Shown here in pieces: positions 26,062 to 33,656 of a stretch of 64,000 nucleotides of DNA. This DNA is from Flavobacteriaceae bacterium EG-1. Lineage in GTDB: Bacteria > Bacteroidota > Bacteroidia > Flavobacteriales > Flavobacteriaceae. The translations under genes were made by a program, and so were the position numbers. Numbering within the stretch: position 1 is the first letter of the stretch; each line of letters starts with the position of its first letter. The stretch spans positions 190,760-254,759 of the forward strand of contig NZ_WJPK01000001.1 in the NCBI RefSeq assembly GCF_009649685.1. Reading direction: 5' to 3'. The notes beneath the pieces are model-generated. The model saw only the letters and a program-made list of their open reading frames with translations, searched no databases and was not told the DNA's origin.

Positions 26062-26304
26062 ATGGAATTATTGTTTTTCGGCATCGCTAAAGATATAGTT
26101 GGCAAATCTAGTATTGATTTATCAAAAAATTCATCACTACCTAAATCAGTGGAAGATGTAAAATTATTTTTAACAAAAAAATATCCTGATTTTTCAAAAC
26201 TGTCTTCACTTGCAATAGCTGTAAATAGTGAATATGCGGCGGATGATGTTGTTTTAAATGATGGAGATGAAATAGCAATAATACCACCTGTAAGTGGAGG
26301 CTGA
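26062..26304 (+). CDS. moaD: Molybdopterin synthase sulfur carrier subunit MoaD
   Basis: An 80-residue ubiquitin-like protein. It starts MELLFFGIAKDI and ends in the required Gly-Gly (IIPPVSGG), which is adenylated by MoeB and converted to thiocarboxylate, the sulfur donor for molybdopterin dithiolene. The stop and the moaE start overlap by one base (TGATG), giving stoichiometric translation with its partner. First gene of the forward Moco operon. Confidence 0.9.
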   Translation: MELLFFGIAKDIVGKSSIDLSKNSSLPKSVEDVKLFLTKKYPDFSKLSSLAIAVNSEYAADDVVLNDGDEIAIIPPVSGG

Positions 26305-26723
26305 TGAAAAAAACAATTATAGAAATAGTTAAAACTTTAAATGTCGATGTTGTTTATAAAGAGCTTTCAGACCCTAAAAGCGGAGGCATCTGTGTGTTTG
26401 TAGGCACGGTTCGTGATTTTACAAATAATGAAGAAGTAATATCACTAGAGTTTGAAACATATAAAGTTATGGCGATAAAAGAAATGCAGAAAATTGCAAA
26501 TCAGGCTATAGATAAATGGAATTTAAATAAAGTTGTAATTCGCCATGCTATAGGGGGTAAAGGAGTAGAAGAACCAGTAGTAGTGATTGGCGCATCATCA
26601 GGGCATAGAGATGCTTGCTTTACAGCTTGTAGATATATGATTGATACTTTAAAAGAAACTGTACCTATTTGGAAAAAAGAGGTGTTTAAAAATAAAACAG
26701 TTTGGGTTTCTGCGCATCCTTAA
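26304..26723 (+). CDS. moaE: Molybdopterin synthase catalytic subunit MoaE
   Basis: A 139-residue protein that converts cPMP to molybdopterin with MoaD thiocarboxylate. Conserved regions are GGICVFVGTVRDFT near residue 28, IRHAIGGKGVEEPVV near 90 and KETVPIWKKEVF near 118 with the two catalytic lysines. Complete length. Overlaps moaD by one base and lies 9 bases before the racemase gene. Confidence 0.92.
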   Translation: MKKTIIEIVKTLNVDVVYKELSDPKSGGICVFVGTVRDFTNNEEVISLEFETYKVMAIKEMQKIANQAIDKWNLNKVVIRHAIGGKGVEEPVVVIGASSGHRDACFTACRYMIDTLKETVPIWKKEVFKNKTVWVSAHP

Positions 26724-26732
26724 AATTAAGAT

Positions 26733-27440
26733 ATGAAGAAAATAGGATTAATTGGCGGAATGAGTTGGGAGTCAACCCAAATGTATTATAAAATAATAAA
26801 TCGGAAAGTTCGTCAAATTTCTGGAGGTTTCCATTCTGCTAAATGTACCATTGAATCGGTTGATTTTTCGGAAATTCATGCTTTGCAGGCAATAAATGAT
26901 TGGGAGGCTCTAGAAGTAAAAATGGTTGAAGCGGCAACAAATTTAAAGAATGCAAAAGCAGATGTATTGTTAATTTGTGCTAACACTATGCATTTATGCA
27001 GCGATGCAATTACCAAGTCAATAGACTTACCCTTAATACATATCGCAAGAGCTACAGGAGAAAAAATAAAGGCTGAAGGTTTAAGTAAAGTACTATTGTT
27101 AGGAACTAAGTTTACAATGGAGCGAGATTTTTTCAGTAACATTCTTGCTAAAGAATTTAATATTGAAGTGCTAATTCCAAACGAAACAGATAGAGAAATT
27201 ATTCATAATGTTATTTATGACGAATTGGTTCAAGGTAAAATTAATGCCGGTTCTAGAGGACAATATATTCGAATAATATATGAGGCTATAAAAAAAGGAG
27301 CGGAAGGAGTAATATTGGGTTGTACTGAAATTCCCTTGTTGATTGAACCAGAGCATGTGTCAATTCCTACTTTTAATACCACAAAAATTCATGCAGAAAA
27401 AGCGGTGGAATTTGCTTTGAATACCATAGCCATAAATTAA
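26733..27440 (+). CDS. Aspartate/glutamate racemase family protein
   Basis: A 235-residue cofactor-independent amino-acid racemase of the Asp/Glu/hydantoin superfamily (YgeA/RacX-like). It has the N-terminal LIGGMSWEST and the two catalytic cysteines C82 (ICANTMH) and C197 (LGCTEIP), so it should be active, probably interconverting L- and D-Asp or related amino acids. It is embedded between moaE and moaC with 9- and 11-base gaps, so it is cotranscribed with Moco synthesis genes although no role in that pathway is known. Codon use and base composition look like its neighbours. Confidence 0.87.
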   Translation: MKKIGLIGGMSWESTQMYYKIINRKVRQISGGFHSAKCTIESVDFSEIHALQAINDWEALEVKMVEAATNLKNAKADVLLICANTMHLCSDAITKSIDLPLIHIARATGEKIKAEGLSKVLLLGTKFTMERDFFSNILAKEFNIEVLIPNETDREIIHNVIYDELVQGKINAGSRGQYIRIIYEAIKKGAEGVILGCTEIPLLIEPEHVSIPTFNTTKIHAEKAVEFALNTIAIN

Positions 27441-27451
27441 ATATATGTAAA

Positions 27452-27925
27452 ATGTCGAAAGAACTATCGCACATAGATGAGGCCGGTAATGCATCAATGG
27501 TAGATGTTTCAAAAAAAAAGACAAGCATACGTAACGCAATTGCCTCAGGGAAAGTTATATTTCCTCCGGATGTTTTTAATTCTTTATCTGGACAAGATTT
27601 TCTTAGTCATAAAGGCAGTATTATTCAAACTGCCGTAATAGCAGGAATTCAGGCTGTAAAGAAAACCTCAGAATTAATTCCGCTTTGCCACCAAATAAAT
27701 CTCTCAAAAATAAAGATAGATATCACCCCAATGGAGAATTCATTACAAATAGACTGCCAAGTTAAATGTAACGAGCAGACAGGTGTGGAGATGGAAGCGC
27801 TTACTGGAGTTTCAGTAGCTGCCTTAACCATCTACGATATGTGTAAGGCTCTTTCACATGATATAAAAATCTCTGATATACAATTGATTCAAAAAACTGG
27901 AGGTAAAAATGACTTTAATCGCTAA
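27452..27925 (+). CDS. moaC: Cyclic pyranopterin monophosphate synthase MoaC
   Basis: A 157-residue enzyme that, with MoaA, makes cPMP from GTP. Conserved motifs are GNASMVDVS near residue 12, LIPLCHQINL near 75, the block CNEQTGVEMEALTGVSVAA near 105-122 and DMCKALSHD near 128, including the catalytic Lys and His region; it ends with KTGGK. Complete. Its 3' end overlaps mobA by 17 bases, so mobA is translationally linked. Confidence 0.93.
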   Translation: MSKELSHIDEAGNASMVDVSKKKTSIRNAIASGKVIFPPDVFNSLSGQDFLSHKGSIIQTAVIAGIQAVKKTSELIPLCHQINLSKIKIDITPMENSLQIDCQVKCNEQTGVEMEALTGVSVAALTIYDMCKALSHDIKISDIQLIQKTGGKNDFNR

Positions 27926-28505
27926 ATTAAACGGACTTGTATTATCTGGAGGTAAAAGTACCCGAATGGGTTCAGATAAAGGACTTATTGAATATCATAA
28001 AAAACCACAACGTGAACACTTGTATAATTTATTAAGTGAAGTTTGTGAGAATACTTATATTAGTTTACGAGCAGATCAAGAAAAAGAAATGCCCTTTGGT
28101 TTTGCAACTATAGCCGATGAAAATAAATTTAGAGGACCTTTTAATGGTATTTTATCAGCTCACAATATTGATAAAGGGGTGGCATGGTTGGTTTTGGCTT
28201 GCGATTTGCCTTTAATGGATTTATCTGCATTAAAAGAATTGATTGCTGCGCGTAATCCTACAAAATACGCTACCGCTTTTGCAAATGCTGAAGATCCTTT
28301 ACCAGAACCTCTTTGTGCTATTTGGGAACCTTTGGCGCTTCAAAAAGCAATTGCATATCTAGATGCAGGAAACGGTACTTGTCCACGAAAATTTTTAATT
28401 AATAACGATACGAAACTTGTTTTTCCTAAAAATAAAAATGTAATTCTTAACGCCAATTCAGTAGAAGACCATAAACAGGCTTTAGCAAAAATTTCAATCA
28501 AATGA
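27909..28505 (+). CDS. mobA: Molybdenum cofactor guanylyltransferase MobA
   Basis: A 198-residue NTP-transferase. The N-terminal nucleotide-binding loop reads LSGGKSTRMGSDKGLIEY, and the metal-binding LACDLPLM is near residue 96. By family it attaches GMP from GTP to Mo-molybdopterin, forming MGD for DMSO-reductase-type enzymes; a MocA-like CTP specificity is possible and cannot be excluded, given the XdhC gene nearby. Overlaps moaC by 17 bases and the next gene by 4. Confidence 0.82.
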   Translation: MTLIAKLNGLVLSGGKSTRMGSDKGLIEYHKKPQREHLYNLLSEVCENTYISLRADQEKEMPFGFATIADENKFRGPFNGILSAHNIDKGVAWLVLACDLPLMDLSALKELIAARNPTKYATAFANAEDPLPEPLCAIWEPLALQKAIAYLDAGNGTCPRKFLINNDTKLVFPKNKNVILNANSVEDHKQALAKISIK

Positions 28506-29569
28506 ATTCTGGCAGGTATAACAGGCAAACTATTTTAAAAGGTTTCGGACTTGATGCACAGCAACAACTTTTAGATGCTAAAGTATTAGTTATTGGAGCA
28601 GGTGGTTTAGGAATTCCTGTTTTAACCTATTTAAATGCAATGGGTGTGGGTACATTGGGCATTGTGGAACAAGATATAGTGTCAGAAAGTAATTTACATC
28701 GTCAGGTTATTTATTCAGAATCTGATATTGGGAGACCAAAAATTGAAGTAATTAAAGAAAAGTTAACTGCTCAAAATACAACTACAAAATTAATTACTTA
28801 TAACACTTTTTTGGTTAAAGAAAATGCATTAAAAATAATTGCCGATTATGATATAGTTGTTGATGCTTCTGACAATTTTCCGACCCGTTATTTGGTAAAT
28901 GATGCTTGTGTGATTTTAAAAAAACCTTTTGTTTATGGTGCTTTACATGGCTATGAAGGCCAAGTAAGTGTTTTTAATTATAAAGATGGACCAACGTATC
29001 GTTGTCTTTTTCCAAATATGCCAAAATTTGATGAAGTACCTAACTGTAATGAGCATGGTGTTTTGGGGATTCTACCCGGCATAATTGGTAATTTACAGGC
29101 TTTAGAAGCTATTAAAGTGCTCACCGGTATTGGTGAAGTTTTATCTGGAAAATTGCTAATATTCAGTGCACTTGAGCAAACATATCAAAAGATCAAGTTT
29201 AAGGTTTTACCTGAAAATTTATTGATAACTAAACTGCAAGAAACATACAATTGGTTTAACCCTTGTGAGGTAATAACTTCGATTTCTGCTAGTAAAATTC
29301 AAGAGTTGATAGCGAATAGTAGTCAAATAATAGATTTGAGGACAAATGATGAATACGCTGATTTTCATTTAGCAAAAAGTATACATATTCCATTAAATAC
29401 TATCGATCAAAATTTAGATAAAATAGATTTTTCAAATCCTGTTTATTTACTTTGTCAATCGGGAAAACGAAGTCAATTAGCATATAAGAAATTAGTACAA
29501 GCATATCCCAAGACCTTATTTTATAATATTTCTGGAGGGTTAAATCAGTATTTAACAATATGCTCTTAA
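28502..29569 (+). CDS. moeB: MoeB-like adenylyltransferase fused to a rhodanese domain
   Basis: A 355-residue E1-like enzyme that adenylates the MoaD C-terminus. The N-terminal part has the nucleotide loop IGAGGLG (G32-G37), the ESNLHRQ arginine motif near 60 and DASDNFPTR near 118. Residues about 265-353 are a rhodanese domain with the sulfur-accepting loop CQSGKRS (C318), which could supply sulfur for the thiocarboxylate. The Zn-binding CXXC pairs of MoeB are reduced to T165-Y-R-C168 and C255-E-V-I258, one Cys lost from each. It overlaps mobA by 4 bases and the transporter gene by 10. Confidence 0.87.
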   Translation: MNSGRYNRQTILKGFGLDAQQQLLDAKVLVIGAGGLGIPVLTYLNAMGVGTLGIVEQDIVSESNLHRQVIYSESDIGRPKIEVIKEKLTAQNTTTKLITYNTFLVKENALKIIADYDIVVDASDNFPTRYLVNDACVILKKPFVYGALHGYEGQVSVFNYKDGPTYRCLFPNMPKFDEVPNCNEHGVLGILPGIIGNLQALEAIKVLTGIGEVLSGKLLIFSALEQTYQKIKFKVLPENLLITKLQETYNWFNPCEVITSISASKIQELIANSSQIIDLRTNDEYADFHLAKSIHIPLNTIDQNLDKIDFSNPVYLLCQSGKRSQLAYKKLVQAYPKTLFYNISGGLNQYLTICS

Positions 29570-30339
29570 CAATACCTGAACTTTTTTTATTGGCAATTGG
29601 ATTTCTTGTGATTGCTACATTGTACTCTTCAGTTGGTTTTGGGGGAGGTTCAAGTTACTTAGCAATATTAACGCTAGTTTTTACAAGCTTTTTTGCCATT
29701 CGAAGCACTGCCTTAGTATGTAATTTAATAGTAGTTTCTGGCAGTTCGTATTTATTTTTTAAAAATGGATATTTAGATTTTAAAAAGTTTCTTCCGTTTG
29801 TTTTAACTAGCATTCCGTTCGCTTTTTTAGGGGCGCGATTTAAATTAGAAGAGCATATTTTTTTTATAATTCTTGGAGCAGCTTTAATTGTTTCTGCTAT
29901 AGCCTTAATTTTTCAATCTGTTCACACAAATAAATCTGAAGAGGTTAATCAAAATTACCCATCTTATGTTACGTATTTCTTGGGAGCTGGAATAGGATTA
30001 CTTTCTGGTTTAGTTGGAATTGGAGGTGGCATTTTTTTAGCACCGATATTAAATTATATGAAGTGGGATAAATCTATGAAAATTGCTGCCTTAGCAAGTT
30101 TCTTTATTTTGCTAAATTCAATTTCTGGAATTGGAGGTTTAATAACAAAGGGGACCTTTGAAGTTCCATGGATTGAAGCGACAGTCTTTATAATTGCAGT
30201 ATTTATTGGGGGGCAGATAGGTGTTAGAATGAGTTTAAATAAGTTTACAAGTAAAAGTATTAAATTAATAACAGCCATTTTAGTATTAATGGTAGGTATA
30301 CGCGTGTTATTTATTAATGGCTTGCAGTATTATTTTTAA
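29560..30339 (+). CDS. TSUP (TauE/SafE) family permease
   Basis: A 259-residue membrane protein with 7-8 TM helices. The family repeats are SSVGFGGGSSYLAI near residue 24 and GLVGIGGGIFLAPIL near 148. TSUP proteins move sulfite, sulfonates, sulfoacetate or other organic anions. Position at the end of the Moco operon, with a 10-base overlap with moeB, suggests a sulfur-compound role tied to cofactor synthesis or to a molybdoenzyme such as sulfite oxidase, but the substrate is not shown by sequence. Convergent with moeA, with 4 bases between. Confidence 0.85.
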   Translation: MLLTIPELFLLAIGFLVIATLYSSVGFGGGSSYLAILTLVFTSFFAIRSTALVCNLIVVSGSSYLFFKNGYLDFKKFLPFVLTSIPFAFLGARFKLEEHIFFIILGAALIVSAIALIFQSVHTNKSEEVNQNYPSYVTYFLGAGIGLLSGLVGIGGGIFLAPILNYMKWDKSMKIAALASFFILLNSISGIGGLITKGTFEVPWIEATVFIIAVFIGGQIGVRMSLNKFTSKSIKLITAILVLMVGIRVLFINGLQYYF

Positions 30340-30343
30340 ATAA

Positions 30344-31564
30344 TTAATAAATACTACGAAAACATACAAAAGGGTAAGCCTCCCCCTTTTTGAATATACT
30401 TTTATTTTGGGGCAGAATTAATAATCCATCGGTATGTGTTAGATTGGCAAAATCACCAGATCCGTTACCTTTTATTGGGTTTGCAATTAGAATGCCTTGC
30501 TTGTTACTTTCAAGAGTCGCCTCTAAAAAATAAACTAAATTGGGTTTAAAATGAACGTCTTTTTTTAATTGTGCAAAAAGTGTTTTTTGTTTTAATCCCA
30601 ACGATTTTTTAAGCCAATATTGAATATAAATATATGTGCAAACAAAGGAAGAAACTGGGTTTCCAGGTAATGCGAAAATTTTCTTTCCAGACTCATGAGT
30701 TCCAAACCAGAAAGGTTTGCCAGGACGTTGTTGAATTTTGTGAAACTCTTTTTTGACATTCAATTTTTCAAGTACTTCAGGTAAATAATCAAATTTTCCT
30801 TTAGAAACACCTCCCGTAAAAATGAGTACATCAAAATTCTCAAGAATATTAGCAATGCTTTTAATCATTTGCTCTTTATTGTCTTGTAGATGTTTTAGCT
30901 CAGCATTTATTCCCCATTCTTTTAAAGTTGCCCGAATACCGTAAATATTCGATTTTCGAATTTGGTGTAATTCCGGTATTTCTTCAATAGGAACCAATTC
31001 ATCTCCAGTAGAAATAATTACAGTTTTAGGTAGCTGAACTATTTTTAGATTAGATTTGCCAATTGTCGCTGCGATGTTTATTTCCGCACTTGATATCTGT
31101 TTTCCTTTTGATACAACTACACTTCCTTCAGCAATATCAATACCTTTAAAATGAATATTTTGTTTAAATTTTAAGGTGTCAACATTAATAGTTGCTGTGT
31201 TTTTTATTTCATTGATTGTTAGATCTTCATATCTAATTACAGTATCAACTCCTTTAGGTAAAACTGCACCGGTCATAACTTCAATACAATTTTGTTTTAC
31301 TTTCAGAATTTTCTGAGGTGTGCCAGCTGCAGCGATTTCTTCTATTGAGAATATTCGTTGTCCGTTTTTGAATTGTTCATATACAATAGCAATTCCGTCC
31401 ATGGTAACGCGGTCAAAAGGAGGGAAGGGGCGATCCGCAATTAAATCCTCTGCTAAATAGTCACCAATACAATTTGCTAATTCGTTAGAATGAATAGGAA
31501 ATATATCAGTGTTCTCATCAAAAATGGTAAGAGCCTTTTCGTATGTAATAAAAGAATTCTCCAT
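30344..31564 (-). CDS. moeA: Molybdopterin molybdotransferase MoeA
   Basis: A 406-residue enzyme that inserts molybdate into adenylated molybdopterin. Conserved parts are FPPFDRVTMDGIA near residue 50, the MTGAVLPKGVDTVIRYED region near 100-118, ISTGDEL near 186, FTGGVSKGKFDYLPE near 250 and ALPGNPVSSFV near 310. I start at ATG 31564, preceded by GGAGG with 5-base spacing inside the moaA end; an upstream TTG is less likely. The separate MogA/MoaB adenylyltransferase is not in the window. Confidence 0.92.
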   Translation of the reverse strand: MENSFITYEKALTIFDENTDIFPIHSNELANCIGDYLAEDLIADRPFPPFDRVTMDGIAIVYEQFKNGQRIFSIEEIAAAGTPQKILKVKQNCIEVMTGAVLPKGVDTVIRYEDLTINEIKNTATINVDTLKFKQNIHFKGIDIAEGSVVVSKGKQISSAEINIAATIGKSNLKIVQLPKTVIISTGDELVPIEEIPELHQIRKSNIYGIRATLKEWGINAELKHLQDNKEQMIKSIANILENFDVLIFTGGVSKGKFDYLPEVLEKLNVKKEFHKIQQRPGKPFWFGTHESGKKIFALPGNPVSSFVCTYIYIQYWLKKSLGLKQKTLFAQLKKDVHFKPNLVYFLEATLESNKQGILIANPIKGNGSGDFANLTHTDGLLILPQNKSIFKKGEAYPFVCFRSIY

Positions 31565-31565
31565 A

Positions 31566-32549
31566 TTAACCTCCAATACTACTCATACTTTGCAAGGCTA
31601 ATTCTGGTGATTTTCGCATTTTTTCAGCTATAAATCCATCTTTTGGTTTCAATCTAATAATTTCAGAAAATTTATCCATCAATTCCTGATCAGATACCCC
31701 AGATCGAATAAAGTTGCGAATATTAAAAACACCATCATCATACAAACAACTTTTAATGTCACCCTTGGCAGAAATTCGTAGTCTATTGCAAGTATTGCAG
31801 AATGTTCTTGAGAATGCGGCAATTACCCCAATATTACCTTTATAACCAGGAACTGAAACTAAATTAGCTGTATCTCCATGTTTGCTTATTATTTTATTTA
31901 AAATAGGATAATGAGCGCTTAAATCAGCATGAATATCTTTTGCAGCATACATTTCAAGATTTTCTTTGTATCCACCATTAAATGGCATTTCTTCAATAAA
32001 ACGAACATCGATAGGGTAATCTTTTGAAAGTTCAGCTAAAGGGATAATATCTTGGGTATTAATACCTTTCATTATTACTGCATTAAGTTTAATCTTAAAG
32101 CCATTTTCGACAAGCAAGTGAAAAGTTTGGATTACTTTCTTAAAGTCATTACGGCGAGTAATTTTATGGAAACGTTCTGCATTTAAAGAGTCAATGCTTA
32201 AATTAATTTTAGTAATGCCTAGTTCTTTTAAGCGGTTAATATGCTTTTGTATAAGGGTTCCATTTGAAGTTAGATGAATAGATTCGTAAGATGCTATTTT
32301 GGAAGTATGTTCTAAAAGTTCCATAAAATCTTTACGAAGAAAAGGTTCTCCACCGGTAAATCGTACCTTTTTAAACCCTAGTTCTCCTAAAACTTTTAAA
32401 ATTCGAGTAATTTCTTCATAACTAAGCAATTCTTTTTTGGGTTCATAAGCGATACCTTGGGCTGGCATACAATAGAAACAACGCAAATTACATCGGTCTG
32501 TAACAGCGATTCGCACATAATCTATTTGCCTGTTATAAGAATCAGTCAT
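31566..32549 (-). CDS. moaA: GTP 3',8-cyclase MoaA
   Basis: A 327-residue radical SAM enzyme that starts Moco synthesis from GTP. The N-terminal cluster motif is CNLRCFYC near residue 20; the SAM motif is FTGGEP; the C-terminal cluster is CNTCNRLRISAKGDIKSC near 250-267. It ends in the conserved Gly-Gly tail (SIGG). All cluster cysteines are present. It is followed directly by moeA, whose ATG lies one base after its stop codon, and is divergent from xdhC. Confidence 0.95.
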   Translation of the reverse strand: MTDSYNRQIDYVRIAVTDRCNLRCFYCMPAQGIAYEPKKELLSYEEITRILKVLGELGFKKVRFTGGEPFLRKDFMELLEHTSKIASYESIHLTSNGTLIQKHINRLKELGITKINLSIDSLNAERFHKITRRNDFKKVIQTFHLLVENGFKIKLNAVIMKGINTQDIIPLAELSKDYPIDVRFIEEMPFNGGYKENLEMYAAKDIHADLSAHYPILNKIISKHGDTANLVSVPGYKGNIGVIAAFSRTFCNTCNRLRISAKGDIKSCLYDDGVFNIRNFIRSGVSDQELMDKFSEIIRLKPKDGFIAEKMRKSPELALQSMSSIGG

Positions 32550-32645: not shown

Positions 32646-33656
32646 ATGACACATGAACTGAAAAATATAGTTGCTGCTTTCTTAGTAGCAAAAAAAGTTA
32701 GACTAAAGACGGTATTAGCTACTGTGGTAGCATTGGAAGGGTCATCATACCGTAAGCCTGGCGTGCGAATGTTACTCCGAGAAGATGGTCAAATGACAGG
32801 TGCAGTTAGTGGTGGATGTGTTGAAAAAGAAATATTACAACAAGCACATAGCGTTTTTAAAAAAGGAATATCAAAAATGATGACCTATGATGGACGATAT
32901 CGATTAGGTTGTGAGGGCATTCTTTATATATTATTAGAACCTTTTAATCCAGAAGAGTCCTTTATAAACGCTTTTGACAACGTTTTAGAGCTTAGAAAGG
33001 AAATTAATGTACGTTGTAATTATATAAAACAGGAAGGAGAAAATAATAAAATTGGGACGCTCATTAATATTTTAGGTAAGCATTATCCAATTTATAAATC
33101 TTTCGAATTTGCAGAGGAGTATTTAATCTTTGAAGAAGTGAAAGAACCATGTTTTCAATTGTTAATCATTGGGGCAGAACACGATGCAGTTCAATTAGGG
33201 AATTATGCCGCAAACATGGGGTGGGAAGTTGTTGTAGTAGCGGCTGCAGCGGAGGAAAAGACTAAGAAAGACTTTCCTGGAATTAAACAGTTTGTAACTG
33301 TAGAACCTGAGCTATTCGATACTAATTTAATTGACACAAATACGGCTGTTATTTTAATGACTCACAGTTATGTTCGTGATTTAAAATATCTACTAGCTTT
33401 AAAAGATACTTTGCCTGTTTATCTTGGCGTACTGGGCCCTTCTAAAAGACGTGAAAAATTATTAAATGAATTAATTGAGCGATGTCCTGATTTAAACGAA
33501 TTGCTTTTAGATCGAATATACGGTCCGGCGGGTCTTAATATTGGGGCAGAAACTGCACAAGAAATCGCAGTATCAATTCTAGCAGAAATTTTGTCAGTGG
33601 TTCGAAATCAGAAGCCAATGTTATTAAAGGATAAATCGGGCGGTATACATAGTTAA
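32646..33656 (+). CDS. XdhC family protein (Moco insertion/sulfuration chaperone)
   Basis: A 336-residue protein with the XdhC/CoxI N-terminal motifs EGSSYRKPGVRMLL near residue 31 and AVSGGCVEKE near 53, and the C-terminal Rossmann domain (LLIIGAEHDA near 180, LGVLGPSKRREKLL near 262, YGPAGLNIGAETAQEIA near 288). It binds Moco and delivers it, sulfurated, to xanthine-dehydrogenase-type enzymes. It is divergent from moaA by 96 bases. Its presence predicts an XDH/CO-DH-family enzyme elsewhere, so the cluster probably feeds that enzyme as well as any MGD enzyme. Confidence 0.9.
   Translation: MTHELKNIVAAFLVAKKVRLKTVLATVVALEGSSYRKPGVRMLLREDGQMTGAVSGGCVEKEILQQAHSVFKKGISKMMTYDGRYRLGCEGILYILLEPFNPEESFINAFDNVLELRKEINVRCNYIKQEGENNKIGTLINILGKHYPIYKSFEFAEEYLIFEEVKEPCFQLLIIGAEHDAVQLGNYAANMGWEVVVVAAAAEEKTKKDFPGIKQFVTVEPELFDTNLIDTNTAVILMTHSYVRDLKYLLALKDTLPVYLGVLGPSKRREKLLNELIERCPDLNELLLDRIYGPAGLNIGAETAQEIAVSILAEILSVVRNQKPMLLKDKSGGIHS

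Follow-up and report, generated by a model that had tools for sequence, protein, structure and literature searches.

Within a Moco gene cluster, Flavobacteriaceae bacterium EG-1 carries a gene for a MoeB-like E1 enzyme whose two zinc-binding CXXC pairs both appear broken and whose chain continues into a rhodanese. The locus raises the question of what became of the structural zinc site, and whether two cysteines that seem to be left over from it, C168 and C255, still do work in sulfur transfer. The EG-1 protein is an ordinary zinc-free MoeB-rhodanese, and such forms are common among its relatives. In our preferred reading, to which we give a probability of roughly 85%, it is a zinc-free E1-like adenylyltransferase-rhodanese (MoeBR/MoeZR/Uba4 architecture) that loads sulfur onto MoaD for molybdopterin synthesis. 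Coordinates are collected in Table 1 and refer to the window, the whole stretch of 64,000 nucleotides that was analysed.

Table 1. The E1 gene, segments of its protein and neighbouring genes, with positions in the window
Feature	Position	Strand	Basis
moaD, probable substrate, ends in GG	26062..26304	+	Pfam ThiS; TIGR01682
moaE	26304..26723	+	Pfam MoaE
Asp/Glu racemase gene	26733..27440	+	
moaC	27452..27925	+	Pfam; NCBIfam above cut-off
mobA-like	27909..28505	+	Pfam NTP_transf_3
moeB-type gene for an E1-like adenylyltransferase-rhodanese fusion of 355 aa	28502..29569	+	ORF; Pfam
ThiF adenylation domain, residues 6-233	28517..29200	+	Pfam; AlphaFold2 model compared with MoeB 1jw9
First zinc CXXC remnant, T165-Y-R-C168	28994..29005	+	Sequence; alignment with CYRC of E. 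coli MoeB/ThiF
Crossover-loop Cys, C182	29045..29047	+	Cys column in fused homologs and in E. coli MoeB and ThiF
Former site of the C-terminal zinc pair, around residues 235-242 (VLPENLLI), which has neither Cys nor His	29204..29227	+	Alignment
Linker Y249-N-W-F-N-P-C255, two residues longer than the Uba4 Y301/C305 stretch to which we match it	29246..29266	+	Alignments
Rhodanese domain (residues 263-350) with active loop C318-Q-S-G-K-R-S	29288..29551	+	Pfam; C318
TauE/SafE-type permease gene	29560..30339	+	
moeA	30344..31576	-	Pfam
moaA	31566..32549	-	Pfam
xdhC gene	32646..33656	+	

Domain structure and homolog samples

The EG-1 protein matched Pfam ThiF with 252.9 bits (cut-off 28.1), as expected of a MoeB/ThiF-type E1 enzyme, and Pfam Rhodanese with 47.8 bits. 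Together with the CQSGKRS loop at C318, the second match identifies a MoeB-rhodanese fusion and confirms that the fused rhodanese described in an earlier, sequence-only reading of this DNA has its Cys loop intact. The ORF translation and the positions of the cysteines (136, 168, 182, 255, 318 and 354) likewise agree with the residues T165, C168, C255, I258 and C318 and the coordinates named in that reading. No NCBIfam model matched the E1 protein above its cut-off: PRK07878 (adenylyltransferase/sulfurtransferase MoeZ) reached 300.5 bits against a threshold of 647, and PRK08762 (MoeB) 338.6 bits against 449.

The solved structures closest by sequence were those of E. coli MoeB, E. coli ThiF and Chaetomium Uba4. 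An AlphaFold2 model of the EG-1 protein, for which the input alignment comprised that protein and 75 of 79 usable named loci (the named loci being the best 80 of 518), had a mean pLDDT of 94.6, with the lowest confidence at residues 253-255. The model superposed on MoeB 1jw9 with Z 33.8 and rmsd 1.6 (232 aligned) and on ThiF 1zud with Z 33.3 and rmsd 1.5 (234 aligned).

For comparison, we scored 177 homologs, EG-1 included, and left out 11 non-fused proteins to give 166 fused homologs; two E. coli references were aligned with them but not counted. We note that 178 of the 179 alignment rows were different and that the sets overlap taxonomically and include near-copies. Relatives from the order were represented by 29 loci besides EG-1's own, the best by E-value; a further 8 E1 matches, weaker but still at E 1e-51 or better, were excluded. 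Named loci were the best 80 of 518 confirmed ones and were found with search patterns lying outside both zinc motifs. The phylum sample consisted of the top 30 loci, 3 of which were already in the set, and 40 chosen by hand, among the matches listed. Gene neighbourhoods were counted with phmmer, using single queries at E 1e-4 on the DNA around each locus, and ThiC was not counted.

Loss of the zinc site across fused homologs

In the alignment, T165 falls on the first Cys and C168 on the second Cys of the CYRC motif of E. coli MoeB and ThiF. Zinc pairs were all-or-none across the 166 fused homologs, EG-1 included, with both CXXC motifs in 50, neither in 116 and no mixed cases; in this sample, these E1 enzymes either have the whole structural zinc site or lack it altogether. 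The first motif read TYRC in 54 of these homologs, CYRC in 50, NYRD in 30, SYRC in 24 and other forms in 8. The [T/S]YRC form to which EG-1 belongs was found in 26 of 28 fused order relatives fetched and in 35 of 79 fused named loci (best 80 of 518); among fused rows of the phylum sample, the counts were 10 of 27 for those newly added from the top list and 6 of 31 for those picked by hand. The literature that we covered, which included few subscription journals and some papers in part, yielded no description of this form.

Position 168 is Cys in 78 of the 116 zinc-free fusions, Asp in 36, His in 1 and Arg in 1. It varies together with position 165, which is Thr or Ser in all 78 fusions with C168 and Asn in 31 of the 36 with D168. 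The pairing of T/S with C and of N with D suggests a packing or hydrogen-bond role more readily than drift, a reading weakened by relatedness among the rows and by the small number of independent tree contrasts on supported branches (2). Two preferred 165/168 pairs thus run through the zinc-free fusions, as though the zinc ligands had given way to two alternative packings. Together with the changes between zinc and zinc-free states, these pairs provide naturally occurring variants with which the purpose of the zinc could be studied.

A simpler account would be decay, in which C168 is a neutral, functionless leftover of the lost zinc site. The zinc-free state is widespread, C168 alternates with Asp, and the best quick tree of the fused rows, from which the trait columns had been excluded, places 10 changes between Cys and other residues at 168, alongside 4 between zinc and zinc-free states and 8 in the linker Cys. 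This tree had 34 of its 175 inner branches starred; in a wider row set, the zinc group needed 5 changes, 3 of them forced by starred branches. However, the restricted choice of partners at position 165 looks more like a packing constraint than drift, an argument that relatedness of the rows weakens, and we regard decay as unlikely but not far-fetched.

New zinc ligands near the former C-terminal pair were also considered. Residues 228-262 contain neither Cys nor His apart from C255, and we reject new zinc ligands in this region on sequence grounds only. C182 or H185 might conceivably contribute to a new site; H185 is replaced by Asn in some near relatives. Loss of the structural zinc site from the EG-1 enzyme is well supported by the state of both motifs, as judged by alignment.

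C255 and the C-terminal pair

The C-terminal pair of the EG-1 protein is easily misread. E. coli MoeB ends this region in NPGCEVCG, EG-1 has NPCEVI, and by eye C255 resembles half of a zinc pair because of a chance match of "CEV" to the E. coli sequence. In a MAFFT alignment of 179 sequences, the C-terminal pair of all 50 zinc-type fusions begins at the N239 column, and the Cys that follows it lines up with C255 in 49 of them and with P254 in 1. These two columns indicate that the second pair is entirely gone and that C255 is a linker Cys. We therefore reject C255 as a surviving zinc ligand. The sequence-only reading had proposed a lost zinc site with exactly one Cys missing from each pair; the loss of the site stands, since both pairs are broken, but the C-terminal pair has disappeared completely. 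The comparison corrects a tempting misalignment in which the linker Cys of a fused MoeB is mistaken for half of a zinc pair.

The zinc-type fusions themselves carry this additional Cys. All 50 have a Cys besides the pair within the residues aligned to 234-262, and in 44 of 50 this fifth Cys lies 16 residues past the second zinc Cys; the pair reads, for example, NPNCPVCG, and the fifth Cys mostly occurs in a motif such as LIDYEQFCG. When the zinc-type relative L057 was aligned with 6yub by HMMER, CPVC of L057 lay opposite CFAC, and YDEFCG opposite YVQFCG. C254 of L057 is invariant in a 33-row alignment that includes EG-1, and the linker has low confidence in the AlphaFold2 model of L057. C255 of EG-1 is nearly invariant among the 76 rows of the AlphaFold2 input alignment, drawn from the best 80 of 518 named loci.

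Conserved linker residues Y301 and C305 are named for Uba4 in PMC7527816, and their spacing of four fits YVQFC. Near relatives of EG-1 have YEFSC, YDFDC, YNLAC or YELAC at this site. Most zinc-type fusions (44 of 50) and YRD-type fusions (29 of 38) match a strict linker pattern, [YHF]xx[FLVI]C, but only 23 of 78 [T/S]YRC fusions do, which counts against the equivalence. C255 aligns to the Y-x-x-F-C motif, but the EG-1 linker, YNWFNPC, is two residues longer. Structural comparison places residues 1-241 of the model against MoeB 7-248 and residues 1-254 against Uba4 8-304, in agreement with a linker Cys, although these ranges give the first and last aligned residues only and C255 lies in the least confident segment of the model. 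MAFFT also set the second Cys of E. coli ThiF in the C255 column across a long gap, where the alignment is soft; because the ThiF pair is C-x-x-C, we interpret this placement as an end artefact. From the alignments, we read C255 as the counterpart of the linker Cys, Cys305 of Chaetomium Uba4.

Roles of the cysteines

Two cysteines of the EG-1 protein are conserved almost without exception. The C318 column is Cys in 166 of 166 fused homologs, and the C182 column in 165 of 166, the exception (L087) being masked there; the latter column is also Cys in E. coli MoeB and ThiF. With the crossover Cys C182 and the rhodanese Cys C318 both in place, the EG-1 protein has two features of a Uba4/MOCS3-like relay.

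The linker Cys, counted as any Cys in the residues aligned to 234-262, is present in 99 of 116 zinc-free fusions and missing in 17. It was retained at similar frequency in fusions with C168 (65 of 78) and without C168 (34 of 38), which indicates that C168 and C255 do not travel together. As an obligate pair, C168 and C255 are rejected: 34 of 38 fusions without C168 keep the linker Cys, and 13 of 78 with C168 have lost it.

These counts bear on the proposal, made in the sequence-only reading, that C168 and C255 are surviving cysteines of the two zinc pairs, kept as thiols that take sulfur from C318 of the rhodanese. The frequent retention of both residues in zinc-free fusions (78 and 99 of 116, respectively) is in its favor, as is the redox communication between crossover and linker Cys to which the Uba4 C202S/C305S double mutant points (PMC7527816). 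Against it, the alignment identifies C255 as no remnant of a zinc pair, position 168 is Asp, His or Arg in 38 of 116 fusions, most of which keep the linker Cys, and the losses of linker Cys beside C168 show that the two are not obligate partners. Additionally, PMC7527816 describes yeast Cys311, which we read as the counterpart of Uba4 Cys305, as not essential, with thiolation slightly reduced. Independent contrasts on the tree were too scarce for a sign test, with just 2 on well-supported branches and 6 when every branch is counted. Taken as a whole, the proposal is very improbable.

For C168, a thiol role finds no support, given the substitutions at this position. For C255, the outcome is divided: a thiol role is possible through homology to Uba4 Cys305, but not as a leftover zinc ligand. 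By analogy with Uba4, an auxiliary role in the linker or in redox state is possible and is the best-supported role for this residue. There is very little chance that in [T/S]YRC forms C168, which sits at the base of the crossover loop, and linker C255 act as working thiols that shuttle or protect a persulfide between C318 and C182; if they did, the loss of zinc would have freed a metal site for redox use.

Moco cluster and likely substrate

The E1 gene stands among Moco genes (Table 1), and the gene content of the genome, which is rated 99.94% complete, points to MoaD as its partner. The moaD product matched TIGR01682 with 61.5 bits, just under the cut-off of 66.15, and is the sole PF02597 match in the genome, which also has one E1 above cut-off. 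Neither a second ThiS/MoaD nor a true ThiG was found in this genome, the sole match to the ThiG profile scoring far higher as a nitronate monooxygenase. The Moco cluster, the single E1 and single MoaD/ThiS and the lack of a true ThiG together make MoaD the likely substrate. Elsewhere in the genome, MoCoBD_2 matches occurred in two frames of about 760 aa (G000:C1 and G000:C5).

The zinc-free motif itself says less about the substrate. Among the best 80 of 518 named loci, the 36 with [T/S]YRC (one of which, L109, is not fused) had Moco genes nearby in 17 cases, at least two thiazole genes in 14 and neither in 5. The [T/S]YRC form is common and occurs beside genes of both the MoaD and ThiS pathways, and it is therefore neither unique to the EG-1 gene nor tied to MoaD. 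All 32 CYRC loci were scored as having neither Moco nor thiazole neighbours, which indicates that the counts may miss distant gene clusters. The thiazole neighbours raise the possibility of a ThiF role, in which the enzyme would load ThiS in the thiazole pathway, either alone or in addition to MoaD. However, the EG-1 gene lies in a Moco cluster in a nearly complete genome that gave no second carrier and no true ThiG, and we consider this role highly improbable.

Three further genes were observed beside the Moco genes. The TauE/SafE-type permease gene and the 3' end of the E1 gene overlap. Of the 80 named loci (best 80 of 518), 10 have a permease homolog near their E1 gene, all 10 with Moco genes. 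Permease homologs beside Moco genes only could mean that this protein takes part in sulfur or oxyanion traffic for Moco. The Asp/Glu racemase gene lies between moaE and moaC, and phmmer found no homolog in the DNA around the E1 genes of the same 80 named loci (0 of 80). The xdhC gene adjoins the cluster.

Proposed mechanism

If the zinc-free MoeB-rhodanese of EG-1 works as its relatives do, it would adenylate the C-terminal glycine of MoaD, and sulfur would then be supplied by a persulfide on C318. By comparison with MOCS3 and Uba4, C182 in the crossover loop may help release the thiocarboxylate. The sulfur chemistry of MOCS3 involves rhodanese C412 and C239 according to PMC5372717, and that of Uba4 involves crossover C202, linker C305 and rhodanese C397 according to PMC7527816. 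We note that passages in PMC1779556 and PMC12954526 report no covalent link between bacterial MoeB and MoaD, so the C182 step may not apply. C255 would at most tune the linker or the redox state, the role that Cys305 has in Uba4.

Cells are strongly affected when the zinc site of Uba4 is broken, probably because of altered stability (PMC7527816); zinc-free enzymes must then hold this region together by other means. In enzymes such as that of EG-1, direct packing between the crossover loop and the C-terminal strand, using residues 165/168 (T/S-C or N-D) and a P-E-N-L turn, may replace the zinc brace.

Comparison with known systems

The EG-1 protein shares its E1 and rhodanese architecture with the MoeZR and MoeBR proteins described by Voss et al. 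2011 (PMC3227635). MoeBR proteins in that scheme have both CXXC motifs, which the EG-1 protein lacks. The second motif is missing entirely from most MoeZ and MoeZR proteins there, as it is from EG-1, but their first motif has the consensus NYRD, compared with TYRC, a [T/S]YRC form, in EG-1. Judged by its motifs, the EG-1 protein is zinc-free and MoeZR-like, and not a strict MoeZR.

Compared with the Uba4/MOCS3 group, as represented by Chaetomium Uba4 (6YUB) in PMC7527816, the EG-1 protein has the same domain order and probable equivalents of three cysteines: crossover C202 corresponds to C182, linker C305 to C255 and rhodanese C397 to C318. Uba4 keeps its zinc site, whereas EG-1 does not. The same text gives Urm1 as the substrate of Uba4, with MOCS2A in addition for MOCS3, in contrast to the probable MoaD of EG-1. 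E. coli MoeB (1JW9) resembles the EG-1 protein in its adenylation fold and in its MoaD partner, which is predicted in EG-1, but has no rhodanese and keeps both CXXC pairs, where EG-1 has TYRC and no C-terminal pair. E. coli ThiF (1ZUD) shares the adenylation fold as well, and differs from EG-1 in having both CXXC pairs, no rhodanese and ThiS as its partner.
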